The notes under the pieces: generated by a model
What the model was told of the DNA's origin: nothing
The model's input: the letters and a program-made list of their open reading frames with translations, nothing else
Database searches by the model: none
Shown: one piece after another, positions 4,429-42,279 of the stretch
Layout: the number at the start of each line of letters is the position of its first letter
How positions within the stretch are numbered: position 1 is the stretch's first letter
Position numbers and translations under genes: made by a program
Assembly: GCA_012520975.1 (NCBI GenBank)
Contig: JAAYNF010000131.1
Span: forward strand, 1 to 42,415
Direction: 5' to 3'
Source of the DNA: Clostridiaceae bacterium
GTDB taxonomy: Bacteria > Bacillota > Clostridia > Saccharofermentanales > UBA5734
Length of the DNA: 42,415 nucleotides

Positions 4429-6240
4429 TCACTCATCCAGACGAAGAACGCTCATGAAGGCCTCCTGCGGCACCTCGACATTGCCGACCTGACGCATGCG
4501 TTTTTTGCCTTCCTTTTGCTTTTCCAACAGTTTTTTCTTGCGTGTGATATCGCCGCCGTAACATTTGGCCAACACGTCTTTTCGGAACGCCCGGACGGTC
4601 TCGCGAGCAATAACTTTGCCGCCGATGCAGGCCTGAATCGGAACCTCAAACTGCTGACGGGGGATGTTGTCCTTGAGTTTTTCGGCCATGCGGCGGGCCC
4701 GGCTGTAGGCCTTGTCACGATGAACAATAAAAGACAGGGCATCGACGATTTCTCCGTTGAGCAGGATGTCCAGCTTGACCAGGTCGGACGCGACGTAACC
4801 TTTGAGTTCATAGTCCAGCGAGGCATATCCGCGGGTGCGCGATTTGAGCGCGTCAAAAAAATCATAAATGATCTCGTTGAGCGGCATCTCGTAGTGGAGC
4901 GTGACACGGTTGGCGTCGAGGTAATCCATGTTTTGGTAATTGCCGCGGCGTTCCTGACACAGCTCCATGATGTTGCCGACATATTCCTTCGGGATCATGA
5001 TGGTGGCATCGACCATCGGCTCTTCCATGCTGTCGATATCCGAGGGGTCCGGCATATTGGTCGGATTGTCCAGAATAATTGTCTGGCCGTTATTCAGCTT
5101 GACATGGTAAACCACCGACGGCGCCGTGGAAATAAGATCAAGCAGAAATTCCCGCTCCAGACGTTCCTGAACAATCTCGTAATGCAGCAACCCGAGAAAA
5201 CCGCAGCGGAAGCCAAAGCCGAGAGCGGCCGATGTTTCCGGTTCAAAGGACAGGGCGGCGTCATTGAGTTGCAATTTTTCCAAGGCATCCCGCAAATCAG
5301 GATATCTGGCGCCGTCTGTCGGATAAAAGCCGCAAAATACCATTTGCTGAACCTTTTTATAACCGGGCAACGCCTGAGTTGCCGGTTGGGCAGCCGAGGT
5401 TATTGTATCCCCGACAGCGGTGTCCCGGACATTTTTAATGCTGGCCACAAGATAACCGACATCACCGGCCGACAGCTGTTCGCAGGGCAGAAAATCACCC
5501 GGACGGAAATAACCCAGTTCGGTCACGACAAATTCCTTGCCGGTATTCATCATCCGGATACGATCACCGATGCGAACCGCACCTTCCTTGACATTGACAT
5601 GGACGATGACGCCTTTGTAGGTATCGTACTTGGAATCAAAAACCAACGCTCGCAGCGGCGCGGTTTCGTCTCCCTGCGGAGCCGGCAAAAATTGGATGAC
5701 TTTTTCCAAAACCTCTTCGATATTCAGGTCGTTTTTGGCGGAAATCAGCGGTGCGTAGGACGCATCAAGACCGATGACATCCTCGATCTCCTGGCGAACC
5801 ACGTCCGGTTGAGCCGCCGGCAGGTCGATCTTGTTGATAACCGGCAGTACTTCGAGGCCCGCGTCAATGGCTAAATAGACGTTGGCCAATGTTTGCGCCT
5901 CGATACCTTGGGCGGCATCAACCACCAAAATGGCTCCATCGCAGGCAGCCAACGTGCGGGAAACCTCATAATTGAAATCCACATGTCCCGGTGTGTCAAT
6001 CAGGTTGAGGGTGTAAATCTTCCCATCCTCGGCTTTGTATGCCATGCGGGCGGCCTGAGCCTTGATGGTAATGCCTCGTTCCCGCTCAATGTCCATATTG
6101 TCAAGAACCTGGCTCTGCATCTCCCGCGCGGTCAAGGAGCCGGTTCGTTCGATCATCCGATCGGCCAAGGTTGATTTGCCATGGTCAATGTGGGCAATAA
6201 TACAAAAGTTGCGAATAAGTTTTTGGCGTTCTGAAGGCAT
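4429..6240 (-). CDS. lepA: Elongation factor 4 (back-translocating GTPase LepA)
   Basis: [40 protein letters not shown]-terminal [35 protein letters not shown]. Confidence 0.98.
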
Positions 6241-6276
6241 GTAAGGTTGATTCCTCCGTCAATCGAGCTGTGTGGG

Positions 6277-6849
6277 TCATGGCGAACCGACCCGGTCAAA
6301 AGGGTAAAAGCGGATCAGGACACGCCCGATGATATGTTGAAGCCGGACCGGACCGAAAGTTCGGCTGTCAAGGCTGATCTCACGGTTGTCCCCCAACACG
6401 TAATATTCATCATCGGCCAGCGTAATCTTGGCATAGTCTAGCTTTCGGATTTCCGTCACGATGCCCGGGGCAAGATAATTTGATTCGTCCAGCGGTTGAC
6501 CGTTGCGATAAACCAAGCCCTCCCGGATTTCGATGGTATCTCCGGGTTGTCCGACCACCCGCTTGATGATGTTGGGACCGCCCTCGTGGCCGCGCAACTC
6601 ATCGGTTTTGATGGTGACAATGTCCTCGTAACCAATCCAACCGCCCAGCTTGCTGATTTTTTCCACCAGCAGCTGGTCATTGCTGTACAAGGCAGGCTTC
6701 ATCGAGTCCCCGACCACCGAATTGCGCTGGACCACAAAAACAACCATCAGTAGTCCGATCAGGAACGCAATCAGAATATACTTGAGCCAATCCAGAAGCT
6801 CAAGCAAAACACCTTTGTTTTGCGATTTGGAATTTCCGATATCAGTCAT
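6277..6849 (-). CDS. lepB: Signal peptidase I
   Basis: [42 protein letters not shown] at 6849 overlaps the aspS stop (listed ORF extends further upstream). Confidence 0.92.
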
Positions 6850-34767: not shown

Positions 34768-35313
34768 TTACGGGATACGCCGGATCCGGGCCGCATAAAA
34801 TTGGATCAGCAAACTCAGCACCAAATCAAATAACAGCACCGCTGCCTGAACTGCGACAGGAAAAACATACCAAAAGAATGGGAATTTTTCGGCCAATGCC
34901 CACACATCGGCTCGGACGAAAAAAAGAATGACCATGCCCGTCAGAATATTACCGACGACCAGCTTAAGCAAGGTTGCCGCGACGCGGCCAAAACGCTGGT
35001 CAATGATCGCCCTAAGCAGAGGATAGGGACCGAAGAAAAAGATAAAGGGAAAGGAAACGGCTAGGCCGGGCCAGGCCAAACTAAGCAGCGCAGCAGCCAG
35101 ATATGCGATCGCCGCCATGCCCACCCCTCCCTCGATAACCGCGATGGCCAAACATAACGCGGTCAATGCCAAGATAAACAAGTTCGCCGTCGGTAAGATC
35201 TGTTTAAGAAACAGCAACAAAATGATCAAGGCGACCAAAAGGCCGCCATAACTTAATCGCCTGACCAAACGTCGGTTTTTATCCGGATCAGCAGCAGCCA
35301 CAGAGGTCACCAC
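34768..35313 (-). CDS. Conserved multi-pass integral membrane protein
   Basis: Hydrophobic throughout, ~5 TM segments, [19 protein letters not shown] loop; overlaps the J-domain gene 3' end by 26 bp. Confidence 0.6.
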
Positions 35314-35686
35314 CCATACACTCGCAACAGGAATCGGCGCAGCAAAGACAACTCAAAGCATTGCAGATATCGTTGACATCGGATCCGCCCTGCCGATAAT
35401 AGGGACCATATCGCTGTTGTTGCTGCCATGGTTGTTGCTGCTGCCACTGCTGTCCGGCCGTGTAATCAGGGTTGGTGTAACGTTGTCCCTGTTTATGATT
35501 GGGATTGGTCAACCGGTCGTAAGCTTCGTTGATCTCCTGCATTTTTTCCTTGGCAAGGTTTTCCAGCGGATGGTCCTTATAGTTGTCAGGATGATATTTT
35601 TTGACCAGTTCACGATATGCTTTTTTTATTTCTTCCTGTGTTGCGCCGGGTTTGACCCCCAGCACTTCATAGGGTGATTTAGCCAT
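35288..35686 (-). CDS. J-domain protein with Q-rich linker and Cys-rich C-terminus
   Basis: [35 protein letters not shown] (HPD) ... [25 protein letters not shown]. Confidence 0.88.
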
Positions 35687-35710: not shown

Positions 35711-36559
35711 TCACAGTCGAGTCGGTTTTTCTCCTCGCAGAATCCGTTGGCGGGTATCCGGAAGACCCAAGGTAAAGATGTTGGCGATGAGACCGCCATC
35801 CCGCCGATAAGGCAACAGCGCCGCGGTCCGATCCATCTCCAGCTCCAAATCGGCCAGCCTTTCTCCGGCAGCCGCACGAGCCGTGGCAAGATCCAGCCCA
35901 CCATAAGGGTTCCAGCTTCCATTATTGCAGTCACGCGTCCAATCGTCAATCGCATCCATCAGATAGATCCAGCAACCCAAGTGGCCTCCTAACAAACCAA
36001 TGGCCTGGCGGATCGGCTCATCCTCACAAACCAGTGTCGCGGACCGAGAAAAAATTTGGCTGAGCAGACCGCCAAACACGTTGCTCGCGGCCGGATCGGG
36101 GGGGCCGGACTCCAGCCGCCTTAAATCGTTCATGGCCGAGGCAATCCAACGGTCATAGGCGGGGAATCGGTTCACGGCTCGGCGGTAACTGCGTTTCAAA
36201 GCAATTTTCGCGATCCGGCCGGAAAAGGGATGCTCATCGGCCACATCATCCACCGCCTTGTACCAAGCAAATAAGACGGTCAGACCGGCGCAAAGCTCCA
36301 AAACCTCACCACCTCTGGCAATCGGCCGCTTGGCCAACGGGTTGAGAATACAGCCGGCCACCTCGTCCGTCGGCTGTTGTTGACTCAAAGACAGCAGCAA
36401 GACAGCAAGCATCGTCAGATCATAGTTTACACCAACACGAGGCAACTGACCGTAGTCATGACCGATCTGTTTGCAAATGCCACAGTAAATCGATTTGTAA
36501 CGCGTGAATTCCCTCATCAACAATTCGGGTTTCAGCGGGCGAACATAGCCAAACATCAA
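35711..36559 (-). CDS. DUF5685-like protein
   Basis: MFGYVRPLKPEL, YCGICKQIGHDYG, AWYKAVDDVADE, YLMDAIDDWTRDCNNGSWNPYGGL; upstream of a J-domain gene. Confidence 0.7.
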   Translation of the reverse strand: MMFGYVRPLKPELLMREFTRYKSIYCGICKQIGHDYGQLPRVGVNYDLTMLAVLLLSLSQQQPTDEVAGCILNPLAKRPIARGGEVLELCAGLTVLFAWYKAVDDVADEHPFSGRIAKIALKRSYRRAVNRFPAYDRWIASAMNDLRRLESGPPDPAASNVFGGLLSQIFSRSATLVCEDEPIRQAIGLLGGHLGCWIYLMDAIDDWTRDCNNGSWNPYGGLDLATARAAAGERLADLELEMDRTAALLPYRRDGGLIANIFTLGLPDTRQRILRGEKPTRL

Positions 36560-36683: not shown

Positions 36684-38141
36684 ATGAATCTCACCACTGT
36701 CCGCACCCGTTTTGCCCCCAGCCCGACCGGCTTCATGCATGTCGGTAATCTGCGGACGGCTTTGTATGAATACCTGATCGCCAAATCAGCCGGCGGCTCT
36801 TTTGTTCTGAGAATCGAGGACACAGATCAAGACCGGCTTGTGGACGGCGCGATCGACATCATCTACAGAACTTTGCGCCAAGTAGGCCTTGTGCACGATG
36901 AAGGGCCGGATATCGGCGGGCCTTACGGACCGTATGTGCAAAGCCAGCGGTTGGCTTTGTATCAATCCTTTGCCCAAGAGCTGGTTCAGAGAGGACACGC
37001 CTACTTCTGTTTTTGCAGCCGGGAGCGGCTTGAAAGCCTCAAAAATCAGGCTGAAAACTCCGGGTTCTCCGGTTACGACCGTCACTGCCGCAATTTACCG
37101 GCAGAAGAATTGGAACGCCTTCTGGCGTCCGGCATCCCCTATGTTGTCCGACAGAAAATGCCGCTTACGGGATCCACAACGTTCACGGACGCGGTTTTCG
37201 GATCCATTACGGTGGAGAATAACGAACTGGAGGATCAGGTCCTGTTGAAATCCGACGGCTTTCCGACCTACAACTTCGCCAATGTCGTCGATGACCACAC
37301 CATGGCGATCACCCACGTTGTCCGAGGATCGGAATACCTTTCGTCGGTGCCGAAGTACAATTTGCTTTATGAGGCCTTCGGCTGGGAGATTCCAACCTAT
37401 GTCCACTTGCCGCTGATCGTCGGTCAGGATGGTCGGAAACTGTCAAAACGACATGGTTCAACCAGCTTTGACGATTTGGTGGCCGAAGGATACCTGCCCG
37501 AGGCGATCATCAATTATATCGCCATGCTTGGCTGGTGCCCCGCGGATAACCGCGAAATTTTCTCCCTTTCGGAATTGTGTCGAAACTTCGATATAACCGG
37601 TATCAGCAAATCACCTTCGGTTTTTGATTATGATAAACTCAGCTGGTTCAACGCCGAATACCTGCGGAGGATGCAACCGGCTGATTTTCTCGAACTGATC
37701 CGTCCTCATCTGGATCCGGCGTTCGGAGAAATGAAATATGACGGCCCGCTGCTGGCCGAACTGCTGCAGCCCAGATTGACCAAACTGAACCAAATTGGCG
37801 AAATGGTTGGCTTTTTGACGGTTCGCCAAGCATATGATCCGGCCTTGTTTACCAACAAAAAAAGCAAGTCGACACCGGAGCTGGCCATGTCTGTTTTACC
37901 ACAGGCAATCGAGACTTTATCTCATTTGCCCGACTGGAATCGAACAAGCATTCACGATGCGCTGATGACGGTAGCCGAACAGCTCGATCTGAAAACCGGA
38001 CAAGTGATGTGGCCTGTCCGTATTGCCGCTTCGGGTCAGGCGGTGACACCCGGCGGCGCCGTCGAAATTTTGGTTATCCTCGGTAAAGCCGAGTCGCTGG
38101 AGCGGCTTGGCATTGGATTGGATCTTCTGGCCAACCCCTGA
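36684..38141 (+). CDS. gltX: Glutamyl-tRNA synthetase
   Basis: TRFAPSPTGFMHVGNLRTALYEYLIAK, FVLRIEDTDQDR, KLSKRHGSTSFDDL. Confidence 0.97.
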   Translation: MNLTTVRTRFAPSPTGFMHVGNLRTALYEYLIAKSAGGSFVLRIEDTDQDRLVDGAIDIIYRTLRQVGLVHDEGPDIGGPYGPYVQSQRLALYQSFAQELVQRGHAYFCFCSRERLESLKNQAENSGFSGYDRHCRNLPAEELERLLASGIPYVVRQKMPLTGSTTFTDAVFGSITVENNELEDQVLLKSDGFPTYNFANVVDDHTMAITHVVRGSEYLSSVPKYNLLYEAFGWEIPTYVHLPLIVGQDGRKLSKRHGSTSFDDLVAEGYLPEAIINYIAMLGWCPADNREIFSLSELCRNFDITGISKSPSVFDYDKLSWFNAEYLRRMQPADFLELIRPHLDPAFGEMKYDGPLLAELLQPRLTKLNQIGEMVGFLTVRQAYDPALFTNKKSKSTPELAMSVLPQAIETLSHLPDWNRTSIHDALMTVAEQLDLKTGQVMWPVRIAASGQAVTPGGAVEILVILGKAESLERLGIGLDLLANP

Positions 38142-38168
38142 CATTGCCATCGCAAAGGAGCTCACACC

Positions 38169-39869
38169 ATGAACAGCAACAACGACCCGATCAACCCGAC
38201 GACAGACGATGTTTCTGCTAATTTCATCCACGACCTGATCGATGAGGATCTTGCGCCCGGGGGCCGATTTGCCGGCAAAACCGTCCATACGCGTTTCCCT
38301 CCGGAGCCAAACGGATATCTGCATATCGGCCATGCCAAAGCCATTGTCATTGATTTCGGCACCGCGGAAAAATACAACGGACTCTGTAATTTGCGCATGG
38401 ACGACACCAACCCAAGCACGGAAGACGTCGAATATGTGGAGGCCATTCAGAACGACATCCGTTGGCTGGGGTATGACTGGGGAGGCCGTTTCTATTACGC
38501 CTCGGATTATTTCCCTCAGATGTTTGATTTTGCCTGTCGTCTGATCGAGAAAGGGCTGGCCTATGTTTGCGAGCTGACCCCAAGCCAGATCCGGGCTACA
38601 CGAGGAACCCTAACCACACCGGCGACACCGAGTCCATATCGTGATCGGCCCGCCAGCGAGAGTCTGGATCTTTTTCGGCGGATGAGGGCCGGCGAATTTC
38701 CCGATGAAGCCATGACTTTGCGCGCAAAGATTGATTTAAATTCGGGGAATTTCAACATGCGCGACCCGGTGCTCTATCGCATTTTGCGCGCCCACCACCA
38801 CCGAACCGGTGATGACTGGTGCATCTATCCCATGTATGATTTTGCCCATCCGATTGAAGATGCCTTGGAAGACATCACGCACTCCCTGTGCTCCCTCGAA
38901 TTTGAAGACCACCGTCCCCTTTATGACTGGGTCATTGAGCATATCGACGCGCCCGCAAAGCCGCGGCAAATCGAATTTGCCAGATTGAATATCAATCACA
39001 CGGTTATGAGCAAGCGCAAACTTCGCATACTGGTGGAAGGCGGGCATGTCAGCGGCTGGGATGACCCGCGTATGCCGACATTGAGTGGTTTGCGGCGCCG
39101 AGGCTACACACCGGCGTCCATTCGAAACTTCATTGAGCGGATCGGCGTGTCCAAGGTCAACAGTATGGTGGACTATGCCTTCCTTGAACATTGTCTTCGC
39201 GAAGATCTCAATCAAAATGCCCGACGAGTAATGGCTGTTTTGCGGCCGATCAAACTGATTATCGACAATTATCCCGCCGACCGAAATGAAAAATTCCCTG
39301 TCGAGAACAATCCGGAACGCCCGGAGGATGGTGTTCGCGAGGTCAGTTTCTCACGAGAGCTTTGGATCGAGGCGGATGATTTTATGGAGACTCCGGCCAA
39401 GGGCTATTTCCGGCTTTTCCCCGGCAACGAAGTTCGTCTTAAATCAGCGTATATCGTCCGATGCACCGGCTGTAAAAAGGATGCCGATGGACAAGTGCGC
39501 GTTGTCCATGCCGAGTATGACCCGGCCACACGTGGGGGAAGCACACCGGATGGCCGGCGCATCCGAGGAACCATTCATTGGGTCGATGCGGCAACCGCGC
39601 AGACCGCCGAGATCCGGCTCTACGATAATTTGTTTTCAGTGGAGGATCCCGACACCGCGGACCAGGAAATCATCAATCATCTGAATCCCGATTCATTGGA
39701 GGTTCTTCCGGATTGCAAAATCGAGGCCTCTCTCCAAGGTTGCCGGCCCCCCGAAGCTTTCCAGTTTCTCCGCTTGGGCTATTTCTGTCCGGACAACGTG
39801 GACAGCCGGCCGGATGCGCTGGTTTTCAATCGCTCGGTATCCCTGAAAGACAGCTGGAGACCAAAATAA
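38169..39869 (+). CDS. glnS: Glutaminyl-tRNA synthetase
   Basis: TRFPPEPNGYLHIGHAKAIVIDFG, NLRMDDTNPSTE, PTLSGLRRRGYTPASIRNFIERIGVSK, VMSKRKL. Confidence 0.97.
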   Translation: MNSNNDPINPTTDDVSANFIHDLIDEDLAPGGRFAGKTVHTRFPPEPNGYLHIGHAKAIVIDFGTAEKYNGLCNLRMDDTNPSTEDVEYVEAIQNDIRWLGYDWGGRFYYASDYFPQMFDFACRLIEKGLAYVCELTPSQIRATRGTLTTPATPSPYRDRPASESLDLFRRMRAGEFPDEAMTLRAKIDLNSGNFNMRDPVLYRILRAHHHRTGDDWCIYPMYDFAHPIEDALEDITHSLCSLEFEDHRPLYDWVIEHIDAPAKPRQIEFARLNINHTVMSKRKLRILVEGGHVSGWDDPRMPTLSGLRRRGYTPASIRNFIERIGVSKVNSMVDYAFLEHCLREDLNQNARRVMAVLRPIKLIIDNYPADRNEKFPVENNPERPEDGVREVSFSRELWIEADDFMETPAKGYFRLFPGNEVRLKSAYIVRCTGCKKDADGQVRVVHAEYDPATRGGSTPDGRRIRGTIHWVDAATAQTAEIRLYDNLFSVEDPDTADQEIINHLNPDSLEVLPDCKIEASLQGCRPPEAFQFLRLGYFCPDNVDSRPDALVFNRSVSLKDSWRPK

Positions 39870-39911: not shown

Positions 39912-39933
39912 CACCGCCGCTTAATCGGCGGTG
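39912..39933. terminator. Hairpin between convergent glnS and galM, possible bidirectional terminator without a clear U tract
   Basis: CACCGCCG-cttaat-CGGCGGTG; loop contains the galM stop codon. Confidence 0.4.
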
Positions 39934-40976
39934 AAAATATAAACGGTTTCCTGTTGGTATGGGTTGCCGGCTTTGTAAATCGGATCGGCAAACCCGGGAT
40001 GATGGACGGCGTCCGGGAAATATTGCGTTTCCAGGCAAAAGCCGTCACGGCGATCATAACGGACACCTTCTTTGCCGACCGTCGACGTCATCATATTACC
40101 GGAGTAAAACTGAAGACCGGGCAGCGTCGACACGACTTGCATGCGTCGACCGCTTTGGGGCTCGAAAACGGCGGCAACCGGTTGTTTGCGGTCGCGCAAG
40201 GATTCCCGCAGAACGAAATTATGATCAAAACCTCCCGCTGCCAACAGAACATCGGTCGTATCAAAGGCCGAACCAATGGACTTGGGCCGGCGAAAATCCA
40301 GCAGGGTTCCCGCAACCGGCAAAATCTGTCCGGTTGGAATGAGTTCGTCATCGGTCGGCGTGTAGAAATCCGCGGCTATTTGCACCTCGTGGCTGAAAAT
40401 ATTGCCACTCCCCTGCCCGGCGAGATTGAAATAACTGTGATTGGTCAGATTGATCACGGTGTCGGCATCGGAAGCGGCGGAAAAACGTATGATCAGCCGA
40501 TAATCCGAAGTCAGAATATAGGTCGCTTGAGCATTAAGATTACCGGGATAACCCTCTTCCCCATCCGGGCTATGATAATAAAAATTAACTCCGGGACCTT
40601 CGACGAATTGAGCTGCCTCGCCGCGCCAGACAACCTTGTCAAATCCTCGCTTCCCTCCATGGAGATGATTGCGCCCATCGTTGGCAAACAGGGCATATCG
40701 GCGATCGGAAATCGGCAGGTCGGCTCGGGCAATTCGGTTGCAGCATCGGCCGATGGTCGCTCCGAAATAGTCTTTGCCGTTTTCATAGGACGGCAAATCG
40801 TCATAACCAAGCACAACGTCCTGAAAATGGTGATCCCGATCCGGCATCATGAGACGCTGCAGTGTGGCTCCATAGGACAGCAACGTGCAAAAGGTACCAT
40901 TCTCCTGATAAATCGTAAAACTTTGAACATTCTGACCGGCCTGAGTATGACCAAAATCCCCGATGACAATACGCAT
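39921..40976 (-). CDS. galM: Aldose 1-epimerase (galactose mutarotase)
   Basis: YGATLQRLMMPDRD, NDGRNHLHGGKRGFDKVVW, NLTNHSYFNLAGQGSG, DHNFVLRE; begins 1 nt after the EIIC stop. Confidence 0.93.
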   Translation of the reverse strand: MRIVIGDFGHTQAGQNVQSFTIYQENGTFCTLLSYGATLQRLMMPDRDHHFQDVVLGYDDLPSYENGKDYFGATIGRCCNRIARADLPISDRRYALFANDGRNHLHGGKRGFDKVVWRGEAAQFVEGPGVNFYYHSPDGEEGYPGNLNAQATYILTSDYRLIIRFSAASDADTVINLTNHSYFNLAGQGSGNIFSHEVQIAADFYTPTDDELIPTGQILPVAGTLLDFRRPKSIGSAFDTTDVLLAAGGFDHNFVLRESLRDRKQPVAAVFEPQSGRRMQVVSTLPGLQFYSGNMMTSTVGKEGVRYDRRDGFCLETQYFPDAVHHPGFADPIYKAGNPYQQETVYIFTAD

Positions 40977-40977
40977 A

Positions 40978-42279
40978 TTATTCTTCTCCTCCAAGGTCAT
41001 CTGCTGCCGCCTCGTCATCGATTTCCGATTGGTCATCTGCTGCCACCTCGTCATCGATTTCCGCTTGGTCATCGGCTGTCACCTCGTCATCGATTTCCGC
41101 TTGGTCATCGGCTTCCGGCCGATCACCGCCCGGTGCAAGCAGTTTCCGGAGCACAACAGGAAAATAGACCACCGCAAACGAGAGCAATGCCATGAGGATG
41201 CCTACCTGCCAGACCCGCTCCGGATGTGTGGCCAAATGCCATGACTCCAGATAATCGATCAGCCCGGCCGCATTGGTGAACCCGTGATGGATTTGCAGCT
41301 GATAGCTGAGCAAAAAGGATACGCCGGATAAAACGGTGTAAATAAGATAAAGCAGCGGCGAAACAAAAAGGAGAAAGTATTCCAATGGCTGGCTGACGCC
41401 GCTGACCAATGAAACCAGCGCCGTAATCGCCATCAGCAAATAAAGGCGGGTCCTGTTCGGAGTCCGGGCGGTCAAAGCAAAGCAAACGGCAATGGCGGGG
41501 ATGCTGAATATCAACATCGGATAAAACCCCGCCAGCAAACGGCCGGCCGTCGGATCTCCGGCAAAAAAGCGGCTCAATTCACCTGTGAACAACCGGCCGC
41601 TTAAGTCGGTGAACTGTCCACTGTCAAACCAGATCGACTGATTAAGAACGTGGTCCAATCCAAAAGGAAGCAGCAGTCGATTTAAAAGACCATAAGAAAA
41701 GGCGCCGGTGGTACCCATCTGCGACAATCTGGAGGCGGTTGCGACAAGCTCGTTTCGGATCAAGGAGGCCAGCGCTCCGAATCCGGAGCCAAGCAAAACA
41801 GAGGTCAAAACAGCCACCAGCGCCGACAGGCGAATGCCGGAAAAATAATCCAGCCAAGCCGGTAATCGCCAAGTACGACATCTGTTGTGCAGCAGGGCGG
41901 TCATCATACCGATGATCAAGCCGCCAAAAACCCCGGCGTAAAACGAGGGCTGAACATCGGCTCCGGCCAACAGTTCATACAGCGCCGAGCCTGAGTGATG
42001 GAATGCTAGGTAGGCGGCAACCGCTGACAAGGCAGCCGCGCCATTTTGAGCGTTGGCCAGCCCATAGGCCAAGGCAACAGCAACCAAAAGAGGAAATTGC
42101 CTCAAGAGAACCGTGCCGGAACGCAGGAGAATATCGGCGCCGAGAAATCCAAAGAAGCGTCCTGTCAAATCACCGGCCATGATCAAAAGGCCGGCCAAGG
42201 GCAACAGAGCGGCAGGTGTAATCAGAATTTCGCCGACCCTTTTAAGCCCATCGACTCCCTTGCGCAACGAAAGTTTCAT
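40978..42279 (-). CDS. PTS glucose/GlcNAc-type EIIC-like permease lacking an EIIB domain, with acidic repeat tail
   Basis: GLKRVGEILITPAALLPLAGLLI, NGAAALSAVAAYLAF, YGLLNRLLLPFGLDHVLNQSIWF, GVSQPLEYFLLFVSPLLYLIYTVLSGVSF. Confidence 0.85.
   Translation of the reverse strand: MKLSLRKGVDGLKRVGEILITPAALLPLAGLLIMAGDLTGRFFGFLGADILLRSGTVLLRQFPLLVAVALAYGLANAQNGAAALSAVAAYLAFHHSGSALYELLAGADVQPSFYAGVFGGLIIGMMTALLHNRCRTWRLPAWLDYFSGIRLSALVAVLTSVLLGSGFGALASLIRNELVATASRLSQMGTTGAFSYGLLNRLLLPFGLDHVLNQSIWFDSGQFTDLSGRLFTGELSRFFAGDPTAGRLLAGFYPMLIFSIPAIAVCFALTARTPNRTRLYLLMAITALVSLVSGVSQPLEYFLLFVSPLLYLIYTVLSGVSFLLSYQLQIHHGFTNAAGLIDYLESWHLATHPERVWQVGILMALLSFAVVYFPVVLRKLLAPGGDRPEADDQAEIDDEVTADDQAEIDDEVAADDQSEIDDEAAADDLGGEE
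40996..41118. repeat. 36-bp in-frame tandem repeats encoding (A)DDQAEIDDEV(T/A)A
   Basis: CTCGTCATCGATTTCCG... begins at 41011, 41047 and 41083 (period 36), plus a partial flanking copy. Confidence 0.9.

Follow-up and report, generated by a model that had tools for sequence, protein, structure and literature searches.

Class I prenyl, terpene and squalene synthases bind Mg2+-diphosphate through two helix-borne Asp-rich motifs. The FPP-synthase-like enzyme ComQ attaches a prenyl group to a Trp in ComX, the product of an adjacent gene (PMC5331326, PMC4008528), and in eukaryotic protein prenyltransferases zinc activates the thiol of a Cys (PMC13290415). According to a 2017 review, cysteine isoprenylation had yet to be detected in prokaryotes (PMC5331326); the major protein prenyltransferase classes listed in a 2026 review comprise only eukaryotic enzymes and two bacterial peptide-modifying families (PMC13290415). 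The eukaryotic cysteine string protein, which joins a J domain to a Cys string, is palmitoylated (PMC4447612). For DUF5685, a Pfam family of unknown function, the literature searched records no function; one paper names the domain, only among the hits listed for C. difficile proteins, and no description of its pairing with a cysteine string was found in the same literature. What is new here is the description of its motifs, of the string and of the gene module to which both belong.

The window, a stretch of 42,415 nucleotides from a Clostridiaceae bacterium, carries a DUF5685 gene on the minus strand (35711..36556), assigned by Pfam PF18937 and by an alignment of 58 homologs and encoding 281 aa between an ATG at 36556 and a stop codon at 35711-35713. 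A preliminary description of this DNA had reported an ORF at 35711-36559 with a DUF5685-like product; the ORF, on the minus strand, is real, and the identity was borne out by a match to PF18937 (E = 2e-61, residues 1-268) that scored 208 bits against a gathering cut-off of 26.7 and covered model positions 1-269 of 272. By these measures, the window protein is a full-length DUF5685 member. The ATG at 36556, which is preceded by GGAGG in the window, is likely a better start than the TTG at 36559, and MFGY is the start of nearly all homologs. Because the TTG start had been used earlier, the residue numbers given then were off by one. In the corrected numbering, KAVDDVADE spans residues 100-108 and YLMDAIDDWTRDCNNGSWNP residues 198-217, CGIC occupies residues 25-28, and the later Cys is C69.

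To define the conserved residues, we used the alignment of 58 homologs, which come from two phyla, Bacillota and Actinomycetota, and reach down to about 18-25% identity. C25, C28, C69, D103, D201, D205, D209 and N216 were present in all 58, and D107 and E149 in 57. On the minus strand of the window, these residues make up an invariant CxxC (C25-G-I-C28, 36473..36484), a third invariant Cys (C69, 36350..36352), Asp motif 1 (D103-D-V-A-D107, a DxxxD, 36236..36250), a near-invariant acidic residue between the motifs (E149, 36110..36112) and Asp motif 2 (D201-A-I-D-D205-W-T-R-D209 ... N216, a DxxxDxxxDx6N, 35909..35956). A Tsukamurella homolog read after the alignment keeps the three Cys, D103, D201, D205, D209 and N216, with Glu at position 107. 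No universally conserved diphosphate-binding Lys or Arg was found among the 58 homologs, R40 being present in 56. The two Asp-rich motifs and the added Cys site that had been proposed thus proved to be there, and the suggested check on family-wide conservation of the Asp motifs, now carried out, gave near-absolute conservation across both phyla. The first Asp of motif 1 and the first Asp of motif 2 are 98 residues apart. Conservation of the Asp and Cys motifs in sequences this divergent is real and not due to chance, the motifs being strongly constrained, and the invariant residues look like metal- or substrate-binding residues.

Immediately downstream, starting 24 bp after the DUF5685 stop codon, lies a gene (35288..35686, minus strand) for a 132-aa J-domain protein (PF00226, E = 2.6e-20) that ends in a cysteine string (35291..35374, minus strand). 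This partner, which the preliminary description had missed, is conserved in homologous loci and is the most informative clue to DUF5685 function. A tail profile (A7) built from 19 strings matched the window string with E = 2.4e-11, as the single hit in its own genome. From one homologous locus to the next, the gene that follows DUF5685 retains the Cys-string C-terminus and the remainder changes: some partners have a J domain only, some a J domain plus TPR-like repeats, and some repeats only (L117, L121 and L122). In the loci compared, then, the string is the constant part of the partner and persists where the J domain is absent. Moreover, among 338 neighboring ORFs of at least 90 aa, 17 had at least five Cys in their last 30 residues, and all 17 were either the partner or DUF5685 itself. 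These trans strings contain fixed acidic and Gly residues (D, E and GGD), and their Cys are interspersed with hydrophobic residues, often ending in CC. The partner resembles the eukaryotic cysteine string protein (CSP alpha/DNAJC5) in having an N-terminal J domain and a C-terminal Cys-rich string; however, the two strings differ in sequence, the partner can do without its J domain, as the TPR-only versions indicate, and the modifying enzyme on the eukaryotic side is an acyltransferase. We regard the resemblance as an analogy in architecture only.

We then compared the occurrence of the two components across genomes. A profile search found PF18937 in 41 of 58 relatives and in 33 of the 300 genomes of a phylum sample of Bacillota (about 11%); the Thermotoga maritima control genome also matched. 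The tail profile was found in 35 of the 58 relatives, all of them among the 41 DUF5685-positive genomes and none among the 17 negatives (hypergeometric p = 5e-10). In the phylum sample, all 13 strong tail-profile hits fell in DUF5685-positive genomes, and two weak hits (E 0.006-0.01) fell in negative ones; even with both counted against the link, p = 2.7e-12, although both p-values assume independent genomes, an assumption that does not hold for relatives. The profile matched one place per genome, with a second, weak place in one genome, and the one weak hit among the 35 (E = 0.035) nevertheless lies beside DUF5685. Six DUF5685-positive relatives gave no profile hit: in three (G024, G025 and G040) a degenerate string adjoins DUF5685, and in the other three (G005, G017 and G049) the DUF5685 gene lies near a contig end. 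In G036, DUF5685 and the adjoining string gene are transcribed divergently; therefore, the link between them is not solely an operon effect.

When a domain is found now fused to a protein, now encoded beside it, joint function is classically indicated. Such an exchange was seen for the string, which is fused in cis to the C-terminus of DUF5685 itself in one Bacillota genome (L045) and in all four Actinomycetota examples (Nocardia sp. L100, Nonomuraea L101, Tsukamurella L193 and N. farcinica L194), and therefore points to joint function with DUF5685. In Actinomycetota, these fused strings are hydrophilic and acidic and resemble metallothioneins. Read directly at the sequence level, the invariant residues, the module, the conservation and co-occurrence of the string and its cis/trans exchange indicate that DUF5685 and the string are very probably functionally linked. 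As DUF5685 is almost always accompanied by a string, in trans or in cis, it may be an unrecognized enzyme by which the string is modified or loaded. Four divergent loci (L047-L050) carry DUF5685 without an adjacent string. Three of the divergent-locus genomes (L180-L182; G283, G307 and G215) encode, about 4-7 kb from DUF5685, a TPR-like protein (about 125-160 aa) whose Cys-rich C-terminus is shorter and which is possibly a separated partner. At another locus (L185, G421; about 5707-6600, minus strand), the DUF5685 gene is apparently broken, giving two separate matches with stops between them, and the remnant is still followed by a Cys-rich tail.

The preliminary description had also suggested that DUF5685 may share the fold of class I isoprenoid synthases or be a metal-dependent relative. 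Among 46 DUF5685 members searched with Pfam class I models, none scored above the cut-off: SQS_PSY was touched by one member, at E = 0.22, and PF00348 by none, so that homology to trans-IDS-like (ComQ/PalQ) FPP/GGPP synthases was not detected with that model in these members. A single-sequence search of the PDB with DUF5685 gave no match, and a PDB profile search gave 11 hits, all sub-threshold, of which two were prenyl synthases (1wy0 and 4jxy) and many were designed helical repeats. HHalign against 15 squalene/phytoene synthases (SQS; PF00494) aligned residues 92-220, with VDDVADE opposite ADDIVDE and LGCWIYLMDAIDDWTRDCNNGSWNPY opposite LGIGMQLTNILRDIGEDxxxxRIYLP. In this register, DDVADE pairs with DDIVDE, LGxxxYLxDAxDDxxxDxxxGxxN pairs with LGxxxQLTNILRDIGEDxxxGRxY, and motif 2 falls on the NxxRDxxxDxxxGRxY of SQS_PSY. 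Against 30 polyprenyl synthases (PPS; PF00348), residues 81-264 were aligned, again with both Asp motifs in register, motif 1 lying opposite motif 1 as it does in SQS_PSY; the two class I families had been built independently of each other. The modest HHalign scores for the first, trimmed and extended alignments were 28.3, 24.2 and 23.3 against SQS and 22.9, 25.6 and 25.5 against PPS, at probabilities of just 1-6%. When 200 reversed or block-shuffled decoys of the trimmed alignment were scored, 1 of 200 reached each score and none exceeded 22 against both families. The global mode of HHalign gave no useful alignment. Rubrerythrin-like di-iron helical proteins, considered as an alternative, did not align, and an all-helical rubrerythrin control scored 13.9.

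Two AlphaFold2 models were compared with known structures, one built from two sequences (model 1; pLDDT 46, pTM 0.46) and one from a single sequence (model 2; pLDDT 40, pTM 0.28). Both low-confidence models are predicted to be all-helical; in both, the helix that carries motif 1 at its C-terminal end stops near residues 104-106, and the one with motif 2 at its end stops near residues 210-212. Foldseek searches of the PDB with model 1 retrieved almost exclusively isoprenyl diphosphate synthases and UbiA, the best match being 9kuq (probability 1.00, E = 0.11, TM 0.42), and with model 2 isoprenyl diphosphate synthases again came out on top. For both models, no E-value was below 0.001 and TM-scores were below 0.5, and the tool itself warns that low-confidence models yield meaningless matches. 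The fold check proposed earlier was thus run and did retrieve isoprenoid synthases, but from models with pLDDT values of 46 and 40.

Altogether, DUF5685 shares with SQS and PPS two Asp motifs at predicted helix ends whose flanks are in register (LGxxxxxxxD/NxxxDxxxD). It differs from them in lacking a significant profile match, in an Asp-motif spacing of 98 as against 113-148 (SQS) and 127-147 (PPS) in the sets compared, in a second motif of the form DxxxDxxxDx6N, and in three invariant N-terminal Cys together with a constant cysteine-string partner. Its first motif is DxxxD rather than the canonical DDxxD of class I enzymes, and metal-diphosphate binding by DUF5685 is putative. The earlier fold proposal is favored by the register of both Asp motifs and by weak Foldseek agreement, and it is weakened by the HHalign probabilities of 1-6%, by the short motif spacing and by the lack of a significant Pfam or PDB match. 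This is agreement between weak lines, not proof, but on balance DUF5685 probably has an isoprenoid-synthase-like fold and may work like a class I isoprenoid synthase. We did not file it as one, because no significant family profile match was found and the motif spacing lay outside the compared ranges. The preliminary interpretation as a whole stands in part: the Asp motifs and the Cys site hold, the fold evidence is indicative only, and the partner has to be added.

The best overall explanation, to which we give a probability of roughly 30%, would make DUF5685 an enzyme that depends on metal, has a divergent helical fold like that of class I isoprenoid synthases and is dedicated to one target, the cysteine string, either in trans, at the C-terminus of the J-domain/TPR protein encoded by the next gene, or in cis, at its own C-terminus. 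D103 and D107, together with D201, D205 and D209, N216 and possibly E149, would bind Mg2+ and a prenyl donor's diphosphate at the mouth of a cavity. C25, C28 and C69 would hold zinc with one open position, where a string thiolate could be bound and activated, as in zinc thiol-alkyltransferases. The prenyl group would then pass to a string cysteine, and the J/TPR protein so modified would be anchored at the membrane, perhaps together with the module's small membrane protein. For this scheme we infer the fold, the metals, the substrate, the chemistry and the membrane outcome. Its attraction is that prenylation is the one reading that uses every invariant residue. Furthermore, C69 lies 34 residues before motif 1, and the acceptor-binding GKxxR of the compared polyprenyl synthases mostly lies 40-45 residues before theirs; therefore, a Cys site could stand in for the acceptor, although this positional argument is suggestive only.

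ComQ and PalQ offer a works-like analogy, in which an isoprenoid-synthase relative modifies an adjacently encoded polypeptide near its C-terminus (PMC5331326, PMC4008528, PMC13290415). Next to DUF5685 lies the gene of a dedicated polypeptide whose C-terminal string is conserved and which may be its substrate. ComQ, however, is a recognizable FPP-synthase relative whose second motif is degenerate and whose acceptor is Trp; DUF5685 stands outside that family, has retained both motifs and occurs with Cys-rich C-termini. That DUF5685 transfers an isoprenoid to the string is put forward as a tentative proposal. It is rather doubtful that the locus represents a full bacterial protein S-prenylation system, in which an enzyme of isoprenoid-synthase fold, equipped with a three-Cys zinc site, would prenylate J-domain/TPR strings or its own tail, self-modification in Actinomycetota being part of that reading. 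If DUF5685 did prenylate the string, the 2017 review statement would be overturned, a J-domain membrane-tethering strategy thought to be eukaryotic would exist in bacteria, and with S-prenylation the partners would be bacterial counterparts of the eukaryotic cysteine string protein.

The chief rival to prenylation is metal handling without any isoprenoid, an account that we consider possible though far from established. Here the string would be a metallothionein-like binder of Zn, Cu or Fe-S, the J/TPR part a scaffold or co-chaperone, and DUF5685 a helical metalloprotein that receives metal from the string or loads it, using its Cys3 and Asp-rich sites. The CC/CxC/CxxC spacing and the Asp/Gly richness of the strings, above all in cis, suit this account, as do the three invariant Cys and the many invariant acidic residues of DUF5685. 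Indeed, the metallothionein-like Actinomycetota cis strings are at least as compatible with metal binding as with lipidation. The fixed D, E and GGD of the trans string also speak for metal handling and are needless for a lipid anchor, but an enzyme-recognition motif could need them. Metal handling leaves unexplained the in-register likeness of both Asp motifs and their flanks to isoprenoid synthases, as well as the Foldseek results, and it sits poorly with the interspersed hydrophobic residues and frequent CC endings of the trans strings and with a third gene encoding a membrane protein. Were the chemistry metal loading, a widespread metal-handling module would still have been defined. The constant cysteine string is a concrete assay target for DUF5685.

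An isoprenoid-synthase-like enzyme acting on a small molecule, by prenyl transfer or cyclization, with the string/J protein as an accessory that merely serves as a membrane tether, a redox or metal sensor or a folding aid, appears unlikely. It draws on the same fold evidence as prenylation of the string, and strings fused to the enzyme suit a tether as well as a substrate; nonetheless, it does not explain the Cys3 site, and a dedicated trans string on a separate J/TPR protein would be an unusual tether. Nor does a recurrent terpenoid gene cluster adjoin DUF5685, whose neighbors are gltX/glnS, yicC, cdaA/R and the like; ispD/ispF lie near it in one locus only, about 4 kb upstream, and are not recurrent. 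Equally improbable is another lipid or thiol modification of the string, by S-acylation or by disulfide exchange via C25/C28, in a helical protein unrelated to isoprenoid synthases whose Asp motifs form a structural or catalytic metal site that is class I-like by convergence: palmitoylation of the eukaryotic cysteine string protein (PMC4447612), a potentially redox-active CxxC and a fold similarity below significance favor it, but DUF5685 has no DHHC-type motif, its Asp pattern and flanks match the class I motifs at both sites, and C69 is as invariant as the CxxC, which therefore argues for a three-ligand site rather than a dithiol.

The third gene of the module (34768..35313, minus strand) encodes a small multi-pass membrane protein of up to 181 aa; its start codon is uncertain, and it overlaps the J gene. 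In about a dozen loci, a multi-pass membrane protein of 170-195 aa is encoded after the string gene, and DUF5685, a J-domain and/or TPR string protein and a small membrane protein together make up a conserved module. Similarity of the membrane protein to DUF2232 was weak, occurring in 6 of 13 members with a best E of 6.7e-4, and a PF02232-like relation is not claimed. In Lachnospira-like loci L109, L110 and L112, the membrane protein downstream of the string gene is replaced by a different protein of about 140 aa that ends in a zinc-ribbon-like CPHC...CPxC.

A wide scan of genome contigs yielded a single close relative. Viral contigs scanned with whole-family and subclade DUF5685 alignments yielded no relatives, and therefore a phage origin of DUF5685 is not indicated. 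On the other side of the gene, at 36684-39869 (plus strand), gltX and glnS-like genes diverge from DUF5685, and this pair also flanks it in most same-order relatives. Further along the window, a tandem 36-bp repeat (40995-41117; 3.3 copies, 95% match) lies where a PTS-type transporter ORF (40978-42279, minus strand) ends and an aldose-epimerase-like ORF (39921-41072, minus strand) begins, the two ORFs overlapping in different frames through the repeat.
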